The notes under the pieces are model-generated. The model was given only the letters and a program-made list of their open reading frames with translations. It had not been told where the DNA came from and did no database searches. From Subdoligranulum sp. (lineage in GTDB: Bacteria; Bacillota; Clostridia; Oscillospirales; Ruminococcaceae), in the NCBI GenBank assembly GCA_014799685.1, contig JAAVHN010000029.1, positions 90,131-154,130 on the forward strand: a stretch of DNA of 64,000 nucleotides. Reading direction: 5' to 3'. Below are positions 39,691 to 60,427 of this stretch, in pieces (within the stretch, counting starts at the first letter, position 1; each line of letters begins with the position of its first letter). A program made the position numbers and the translations under genes.

Positions 39691-39720
39691 GGAAGCCCTG
39701 ACTCAACCGGCGTGTCGGAC
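39691..39720. repeat. 30 bp interspersed repeat, copy 2
   Basis: GGAAGCCCTGACTCAACCGGCGTGTCGGAC; related copies at 191-220 and 39891-39920. Confidence 0.55.
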
Positions 39721-40367
39721 CGGCGATTGATGCAGCGGTTCCTCCGGAAGGGCGCGCCGGGCACGACCGGCCTCTGCTGCGCATAGAATGTGGGGAGAAG
39801 CGGCGGCACGCGCGTTTTACATATATAAAATACACGAAATTTTTGCCCGTGTTTTCCATATTGTTGTTGTTTTTGTCATTTTGATGCTTGGGAAGCTCTG
39901 ATTCCATCGATGTGTCGGATCGGCGGGCAGATTTTCCTCCGGCCCAAGAGGTACCGGGACGCGCGAGGCGATTGATTCAAAGATTCCCTCCTGTATGAGC
40001 TTCTTTCTGTCCGCTGCACCGGGCCGCTGCAGGACGAGAGTCTTCTTTTTGCCGCACAGGCATCCCCCTTTCCACAGCAGTTCCTTTTTCCCCCGGCGCC
40101 GTTTACCGCGCGGCGCATCGGTCCATCCTTTTGAGGGATCGCTGCAGGGATGGGGGACGGCATATGGAACGGCACACGGCGCAGCCGGCAAGACGGCAGA
40201 CGGGGCTTTGGGGCGGGGCGGGACAGCTTGCACGAACAGGGCAGCTTGTCCGCGCAGGATTTTCGTCACAAATCGTTTATGGAAAATTCATATGGGAATG
40301 CTATACTCATTTGGCACGGGCCGCCCCCCGGCGGCATCCGCAAACCGGTGAAAAGGGAGAGACCTTT

Positions 40368-46162: not shown

Positions 46163-47494
46163 TCACTGCTCCACCGGCACCGGCCGTTCTCCCTTTTTCT
46201 CCCGCACGATCTTCACGCGCGTCACGGCGCGGGGCGTGGCTTCCATTACGGTAAACTGGTAGCCCTCGGTCTCCAGCTCCAGCGTCTCGCCCGCTTCGGG
46301 GATGCGGCCCAGCGTCTCGGTGACAAAACCGCCGATGGTGTCGCTGTCGGCATTTTCAAACAGATCCTCGCCCAAAATGCCCTCCAGCTCGTTCACGGGC
46401 ACGTCGCCGCCCACCTCGTATACGCCGTCCGAGAGCGTCACGACGGCGTTGCTGTCGGCGTGCTCGTCGTCCAGATCGCCGACGATGGCCTCTAACAGGT
46501 CCTCCATCGTCACCATGCCCTCGGTGCCGCCGTATTCATCCACGACGATGGCGAGATGCACGCGCGCCTTCTGGAACTCGTGCAAAAGATCCGAGCACGT
46601 CATGCCCTCGGGCACATACAGCACGCTGCGCATGAAGGTTTCGGGCGTATCTTCGGCATGCGTGCCCGCCTCCAGCAGGGGGACAAGGTCCTTCACAAAC
46701 ACCGCGCCCACAATGTCGTCCACATTGTCGCGGTACACCGGAATGCGCGAAAAACGGTTTTCGGCCTGCAGCGCCGCGATCTCGCGCAGCGTGGCCGTCA
46801 CGGGCACGCGCACAAGGTCGGTGCGGTGCGTCATCACCTCGGATACGCGGCGGTCGTCAAATTCAAAGATATTCTTGATCATCTCGTGCTCGCGCTCGTC
46901 CACCGCGCCCGTCTCCTCGCCGGCCTCCACCATCATCAGGATGTCCTCCTCGGCCACGGGCTCCTCCTCGCTCTCGGGGCCGATGCCCAGCGGGCGCAGC
47001 ACGAGGTTTGTGGAAGCGGCGATGAAGCGCACAATGGGGCGGCACACGCGGTTCAGCGCCCAGATGACGCCCACCACGCGCAGCGCCACGCCGTCCGGGT
47101 TTTTCATGGCGATGCGCTTGGGCGCGAGCTCGCCGAAAATGAGCATAAAATACGATAAAATGATCGTGATGACAATCACGATGATGCCGCGCATCGTCGC
47201 GGCCGGGATGGGCACGCCGGAAAGCGCGCGCACGAGCGGATCGGCAAAGCTGTCCGCCGCGGCGGCCGACGCTAAAAAGCCGGATAACGTGACGCCCACC
47301 TGAATGGTGGCCAGAAAATCCGACGGCGCCTCGGTAATCACAAGCAGGCGCCCGGCGGCCTTGTTGCCGTTTTCGGCAAGGCGCTTCATGCGCTGCGTGT
47401 TTACAGAGACTACGGCAAATTCGCTCATGGCAAAAAACGCGTTCGACGCGATGAGCACCACCTGTAAAAGCAAACTGGGCAGGACTGTGTCCAT
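46163..47494 (-). CDS. CNNM/CorC-type (hemolysin-like) transporter
   Basis: DUF21 TM domain, two CBS domains (VMTHRTDLVRVPVTATLREIAALQAENRFSRIPVYRDNVDDIVG), CorC_HlyC C-terminus. Confidence 0.92.
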   Translation of the reverse strand: MDTVLPSLLLQVVLIASNAFFAMSEFAVVSVNTQRMKRLAENGNKAAGRLLVITEAPSDFLATIQVGVTLSGFLASAAAADSFADPLVRALSGVPIPAATMRGIIVIVITIILSYFMLIFGELAPKRIAMKNPDGVALRVVGVIWALNRVCRPIVRFIAASTNLVLRPLGIGPESEEEPVAEEDILMMVEAGEETGAVDEREHEMIKNIFEFDDRRVSEVMTHRTDLVRVPVTATLREIAALQAENRFSRIPVYRDNVDDIVGAVFVKDLVPLLEAGTHAEDTPETFMRSVLYVPEGMTCSDLLHEFQKARVHLAIVVDEYGGTEGMVTMEDLLEAIVGDLDDEHADSNAVVTLSDGVYEVGGDVPVNELEGILGEDLFENADSDTIGGFVTETLGRIPEAGETLELETEGYQFTVMEATPRAVTRVKIVREKKGERPVPVEQ

Positions 47495-47596
47495 AGAGAA
47501 AAAAACCACTCCTTTTTCTGTTCGTGTTCTAACACAAAGCCGGGCGGGGGGAAGTTTGTTCTGCCGCCCGGGAAACGCTCTTGTGCCGGGCGGGTT

Positions 47597-47653
47597 GCAG
47601 GCCGCACAAGGAATATGCGGCCTGCACTTCCCTGCGGGAAGATGCAGGGTCGC
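47597..47653. repeat. Double-hairpin repeat, copy 1
   Basis: GCAGGCCGCAcaaggaataTGCGGCCTGC + ttCCCTGCgggaagatGCAGGGtcgc. Confidence 0.75.
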
Positions 47654-47698
47654 CGGCAGGGTATTTGTGCCGTTTCGCTCCGGTGCGGGCACCCCGCT

Positions 47699-47755
47699 TG
47701 CCGGCCGCACAAGGAACTTGCGGCCGGCACTTCCCTGCGGAATATGCAGGGTCGC
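47699..47755. repeat. Double-hairpin repeat, copy 2
   Basis: GCCGGCCGCAcaaggaactTGCGGCCGGC + ttCCCTGCggaatatGCAGGGtcgc. Confidence 0.75.
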
Positions 47756-48008
47756 GCCCGGGCACCGGCTCCAAGGCTTCGCCGGTGCTTTTCCCGGGAC
47801 AAATGGGGCCCCCGCGGAAGACCGCATCGCGGGCTTTCGTGGGGAAGCGACGGAACGGCGAAGCGGTGTGAGGGATGCTGGCCGAAGGACAGCATCCTGA
47901 ACAAAGCGCAGCCCGTGACGGAGCTGGGCCCACTCCTCCGCTGCACGGCGCAAACACCCGCCACCACCCGGGGAAACGTTCCTGTGCGGGCGGGGCGGCG
48001 TTTGTTCT

Positions 48009-48064
48009 GCCGCCCGCGCAAGGAACTTGCAGCCGGTACTTCCCCGCGGGAATATGCGGGGTCG
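48009..48064. repeat. Double-hairpin repeat, copy 3 (first stem degenerate)
   Basis: gccgcccgcgcaaggaacttgcagccgg + ttCCCCGCgggaatatGCGGGGtcgc. Confidence 0.7.
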
Positions 48065-48264
48065 CCGCCCGGGGAACACCCGTGCGCCCCTTCCCCGCCC
48101 GCAGATTAAAACACATTGTATCATACCAAAAAAAATTCGCGCCGTCAAAAGCGAAATTCGTCAAAATATTGGCATCCCGGCCGGATTATGGTATACTATA
48201 TGCGGTTATACTTTTTTTGCGAACAATTTCAGGGCCTTGCGCCACTTTTCAGGGAGGTTTTTTC

Positions 48265-60296: not shown

Positions 60297-60427
60297 ATTC
60301 ACACCCCCCTGTTGATCCCCCATTTTAAAAAATTTGATTGATCCGGCAAATAGGCCCGGCCTGCCGGCCCCGCCGGAATGAAAATACCGCCCGCAGGAAC
60401 AGCTTTTTTGCGGACGGTATATGTATC

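Follow-up and report, generated by a model that had tools for sequence, protein, structure and literature searches.

The repeats described here are mobile DNA and not a locus-specific RNA: each is a copy of a non-coding module of 55–57 nt, composed of two unlike hairpins and ending in GGGTC. The best explanation of its distribution, to which we assign a probability of roughly two in three, is that this mobile two-hairpin module has spread by carriage in miniature inverted-repeat elements (MITEs) and by exact entry into repeats. Bacterial genomes often contain small palindromic repeats, and the spread of those that have no transposase awaits explanation. The present module is both present and absent in near-identical hosts, occupies several kinds of site, shows clear covariation and occurs in few species. 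It nests in small mobile elements and in older hairpins, in the manner of Russian dolls. Together, these features make both the insertion mechanism and the vehicle directly testable by strain comparison.

Three copies between two divergent genes

The window, a 64,000-nt stretch (G000:C29:90131-154130) of a 3.10-Mb genome in 51 contigs, houses three copies in a gap of ~770 bp between two divergent genes. Scores are those of the covariance model.

46163..47494, minus strand: CNNM/CorC-type transporter gene, left boundary of the gap
47541..47595, plus strand: mosaic backbone before copy 1, matching C18:98693-98638(-) and C5:48491-48436(-)
47596..47651, plus strand: double-hairpin module copy 1, 77.9 bits
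47653..47698, plus strand: mosaic backbone between copies 1 and 2, joined directly to the preceding backbone segment in C18, C5 and C17
47699..47753, plus strand: double-hairpin module copy 2, 77.2 bits
47755..47798, plus strand: mosaic backbone after copy 2, joined directly to the preceding backbone segment in C18 and C5
47801..47927, plus strand: insertion into the mosaic backbone of an unrelated, hairpin-rich 127-bp repeat
47928..48007, plus strand: last mosaic backbone segment, matching C18:98540-98451(-) and holding the palindrome interrupted by copy 3
48008..48063, plus strand: double-hairpin module copy 3, 69.8 bits
48265..49311, plus strand: Polysacc_synt_2 gene, right boundary of the gap

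A repeat search of the window recovers all three copies, with the order, positions and stem arms reported in the first-pass annotation. Copy 1 pairs GCAGGCCGCA with TGCGGCCTGC in stem 1 and CCCTGC with GCAGGG in stem 2, and its 3′ end reads GGGTC. Copy 2 has GCCGGCCGCA/TGCGGCCGGC as stem 1, the same CCCTGC/GCAGGG stem 2 and a second loop that is one base shorter. The second stem of copy 3 is CCCCGC/GCGGGG; in its first stem, GCCGCCCGC and GCAGCCGGT face each other with mismatches, and the 5′ arm of that stem is similar to the surrounding host palindrome TGCCGCCCG. Folded as DNA, copies 1 and 2 are far better than dinucleotide shuffles (z –5.7 and –6.7), and their RNA folds are also stable and much better than shuffles. 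The proposed two-hairpin structure is thus sound in these two copies but damaged in stem 1 of copy 3, which shows no clear gain over dinucleotide shuffles as DNA (z –1.7), nor a much better RNA fold than shuffles, because that stem is mismatched. A weak covariance-model match at 60340-60419 (22.4 bits, E 0.086) was rejected as a further copy, as inspection revealed no convincing module.

Paralogous mosaic repeats lie at C18:98451-98693, at C5:48251-48491 and on C17. At the copy 1 site, C18 and C5 read GGCGGGT-CCGGC, and at the copy 2 site both read CCCCGCGTC-CGCCCGG, with the module absent at the exact junction each time. The C17 mosaic has copy 2 and lacks copy 1, again at the exact junction. 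The 127-bp repeat is missing from the mosaics at C18, C5 and C17, and free copies of it are found at C12:42064-42190(-) and C31:26545-26674(-). The window locus is probably a nested insertion, in which a mosaic repeat of ~240 bp took in the module three times and the 127-bp repeat once, a reading that we hold as firmly as the explanation of which it is part. The sites of copies 1 and 2 are at the 3′ edge of the loop of a short palindrome (GCCGG-N6-CCGGC and CGGGCG-N9-CGCCCG). Across 16 non-MITE blocks, flank-to-flank pairing averaged –16.7 kcal/mol versus –14.3 kcal/mol for re-paired flanks (permutation p 0.002); since several of the 16 loci are related, this is suggestive only of a palindromic context for non-MITE copies.

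Copy number, distribution and covariation

With copy 2 as query, blastn returned 28 matches in the 3.10-Mb host genome (G000), and a covariance model built from 24 copies returned 44 at E ≤ 0.001 and 50 at E ≤ 1. Chance origin is excluded by the 28 blastn and 44 covariance-model matches in one genome. Four contigs (C25, C28, C35 and C50) begin or end with 55-bp head-to-tail arrays, and because contigs end inside arrays the assembly probably undercounts the module. A two-copy array was also observed at L011 4228-4332 (C5:59227-59331), either directly upstream of an acyltransferase-like reading frame or reading into it.

The covariance-model search proposed in the first-pass annotation for this and related genomes yields, in addition to the 44 matches in the host genome, 61 copies in a single congener (G007) and none in the other nine congeners. 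Within a 298-genome sample of the family, one further carrier (G072) has three copies under stricter filters, and the rest are without the module. An exact pattern compared with 84,980 species genomes matched only the MAG CANRZX (uncultured Clostridia) and one Butyricicoccus-labelled MAG. Spread on phages or plasmids was rejected, as the viral-contig, phage and plasmid collections searched contained no module match. Both species also have, in non-MITE settings, a second subfamily that is distinguished by its stem 1. An Rfam 15 scan of the window gave no hit that reached the gathering score, and a literature search of open-licence papers returned no description of this double-hairpin family. 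With no Rfam match and many further copies, the view of an uncatalogued repeat family is upheld.

Hairpin 1 consists of a 10-bp stem with a loop that retains GGAA in most copies, and hairpin 2 of a 6-bp stem with a loop that retains an octamer similar to GGGAATAT. The 24-copy alignment has six pairs changed on both sides, with 34 cells versus 12.6 in shuffles. Among 94 distinct copies, 13 of the 16 stem pairs are changed on both sides (129 cells versus 41.5 in shuffles), a level reached by 0 of 500 shuffles. Fitting this larger alignment to the model biases it towards the structure, and the shuffles take no account of relatedness. Several copies nevertheless have a quite different yet paired stem 1 (TGCCGAAGCC/GGGCTTCGGCA and GGCCTGCCGC/GCGGCGGGCC). 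The compensatory changes noticed in three copies thus extend across the family, and the family does not fall on the grounds named beforehand, a lack of further copies and of covariation, since further copies are many and the covariation is strong. As for the selection on structure deduced from these changes, pairing is indeed maintained, but in mobile palindromic DNA this does not necessarily imply that an RNA is selected. The pairs may be kept by selection for the fold, by hairpin-templated correction or by the two together. The TTCCC/GGGAA alternative to stem 2 can form in the window copies but lacks conservation: of 24 sequences, 6 break one of its pairs, most of them GAGAA copies of the congener, in which the main stem is intact. 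Weaker and broken in the congener, it was rejected as a competing stem.

Carriers with IS5-type ends and module-free sites

The end GATTTATTCAGAGGTTCC occurs at 131 sites of the host genome with up to 3 mismatches (66 plus, 65 minus), whereas its reversed control gave 0. Paired ends bound elements from 41 bp to several hundred bp. The carrier MITEs have ends of the form G[G/T]AAGC-CTGAATAAATC and 4-bp target duplications. The 4-bp flanks of 48 module-bearing two-ended elements match perfectly in 20 and at three of four positions in 18; mismatched flanks give expectations of 4% and 20%, respectively. Both ends flank 44 of 62 module copies in the congener, where many elements are compact (~125 bp) with the order end-module-end. 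Within the genus, the IS5-type ends share the presence pattern of the module.

At L183 (G007:C90), a perfect MITE end lies ~170 nt upstream of an IS5-type transposase remnant, the reading frame of which holds a DUF772 (IS5 InsH-type) domain (E 5.6e-18). A related end is found near a DDE_Tnp_1 remnant on C28 of the host genome. Given their ends, their target duplications and the occurrence of these ends near transposase remnants, the carriers are best read as IS5-type MITEs; they have inverted ends, duplications and ends common to a transposase remnant, and no intact parent was found. The loci examined yielded remnants only and no autonomous IS5 copy with matching ends. The remnant at L183 is apparently broken by another insertion and is a possible parent of the MITEs.

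The window itself contains a 97-bp IS5-type MITE without the double-hairpin module at 39891-39987 (GGAAGCTCTGATTCC...GATTGATTCAAAGATTCC) and, at ~39700-39742, an end of this type that has decayed. At least three other multi-hairpin modules (CCTAAGAGCCGCCGC..., GATAACGCCTACGGCG... and TCCCCGCAAGGGGGATGCC...) occupy fixed points elsewhere in this MITE family, at L052, L062, L063 and L055; they are unrelated to the double-hairpin module. The latter is also found in elements with other ends, namely TATAGCA.TTCTCA.AATTG in the host genome and AAACTGTCTAAAAAGTCGCG in G072. Elements with the second end type TATAGCA.TTCTCA.AATTG.CAATA (L114, L015, L022 and L017) have the MITE interior in common, which suggests that miniature elements exchanged ends.

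Matching sites with and without the module also occur among the repeats. L013 (160 bp) and L021 (215 bp) are identical at 158 of 159 positions outside the module, and L021 has the 56-nt module where L013 has one G. Identical modules (56/56) are found in backbones that are just 88–95% identical. In the pair L019 and L020, with identical modules (56/56) in backbones of 88% identity, the sequences suggest that the module moved after the backbones diverged, or was converted. The junctions of the module show neither terminal inverted repeats nor a target duplication, in which the module itself departs from a MITE. We infer that the ancestral state is the module-free one; in support, the opposite arm of the near-palindromic MITE has no insert. 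Some module-free sites could be deletions, and gene conversion between repeat copies could have brought the module from one backbone to another.

Mode of spread and comparison with known systems

In the explanation that we prefer, the module travels inside MITEs with IS5-type ends, a carriage visible in the sequence, and an IS5-family transposase would have moved these carriers, as the remnant with the same end indicates. MITE backbones and the other mosaic repeat also either carry or lack the module at exact points, without target duplication and often within or at the edge of palindromes; there it would have entered directly. Entry into existing palindromes via a single-stranded hairpin is favoured: while the lagging strand is synthesised, a folded single strand would likely be copied or joined into a second hairpin that is extruded, through some enzyme or through template switching. 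The 55-bp head-to-tail arrays would most simply have grown by slippage or unequal exchange. Two points speak against this explanation: the entry sites have no fixed target, and no intact transposase for the carriage or entry step was found in the genome. We tentatively put forward the further possibility of a class of transposase-less modules, in which folded ssDNA inserts into hairpin loops or arms, the repeats nest, and IS5-type MITEs serve as vehicles.

A module without mobility of its own could instead have originated a single time, in the core of an IS5-type MITE, with every other copy a MITE descendant, a relic or a product of gene conversion and recombination among repeats. The congener, where most copies form the core of a MITE, the compact 125-bp elements among them, fits such an origin, as does the presence pattern that MITEs and module share in the genus, and conversion could account for identical modules in differing backbones. 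However, the exact single-module differences at two separate points of a non-MITE mosaic, the modules inside elements with unrelated ends, and the second subfamily, with its other stem 1 in non-MITE settings of both species, argue against it, and we consider this origin rather unlikely. We give still less weight to a structured RNA motif under selection for processing, stability or regulation and spread by mobile DNA. Strong covariation, conserved GGAA and GGGAATAT loops and the stability of copies 1 and 2 when folded as RNA are in line with it, but the window has no Rfam match, the genomic neighbourhood is not fixed, and the copies form head-to-tail arrays, are patchily distributed and include decayed members such as window copy 3.

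The first-pass annotation had also raised REP-like DNA hairpins and an associated transposase. Mobilisation of a REP/REPIN-type repeat by a RAYT tyrosine transposase would suit high-copy palindromes with strong hairpins, and some REP families are reported with dimers inside palindromic sequences (PMC3733652). However, a search for Y1 transposases in this and 11 other genomes revealed no RAYT and, in the two main carriers, only IS200-type fragments, one truncated TnpA in the host genome and two degraded TnpA in the congener; none of these lies close to a module copy. That alone is not decisive, because CGTC REP families are also without a dedicated transposase (PMC3733652). Moreover, the alignment shows no GTAG or CGTC tetranucleotide at the stem foot, as the unit ends in GGGTC with only TC unpaired, and where REPs have predominantly inverted dimers, the arrays here are direct, with a 55-bp period. 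We therefore rejected a RAYT/REP origin as highly improbable.

The module resembles REP, BIME and REPIN sequences of the GTAG and CGTC super-families in being a short, high-copy DNA hairpin that is often clustered. It differs from them as a fixed 55-nt pair of unlike hairpins that forms head-to-tail arrays and often lies in IS5-type MITEs. The carriers are like bacterial IS5-type MITEs (bacterial MITEs are reviewed in PMC10969869), with inverted ends, 4-bp duplications, no genes and ends common to an IS5-type transposase remnant. Unlike such MITEs, the module is not bounded by terminal inverted repeats or a target duplication, and it also occurs outside them. The double-hairpin elements (DHE) and repetitive hairpin-forming elements (RHE) of fungal and sponge mitochondria are compact hairpin repeats, seemingly mobile, with maintained stems. 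The likeness of our module to these compact, mobile-looking hairpins is one of appearance; they reside in other genomes, whereas the module described here has MITE carriers and matching module-free sites.
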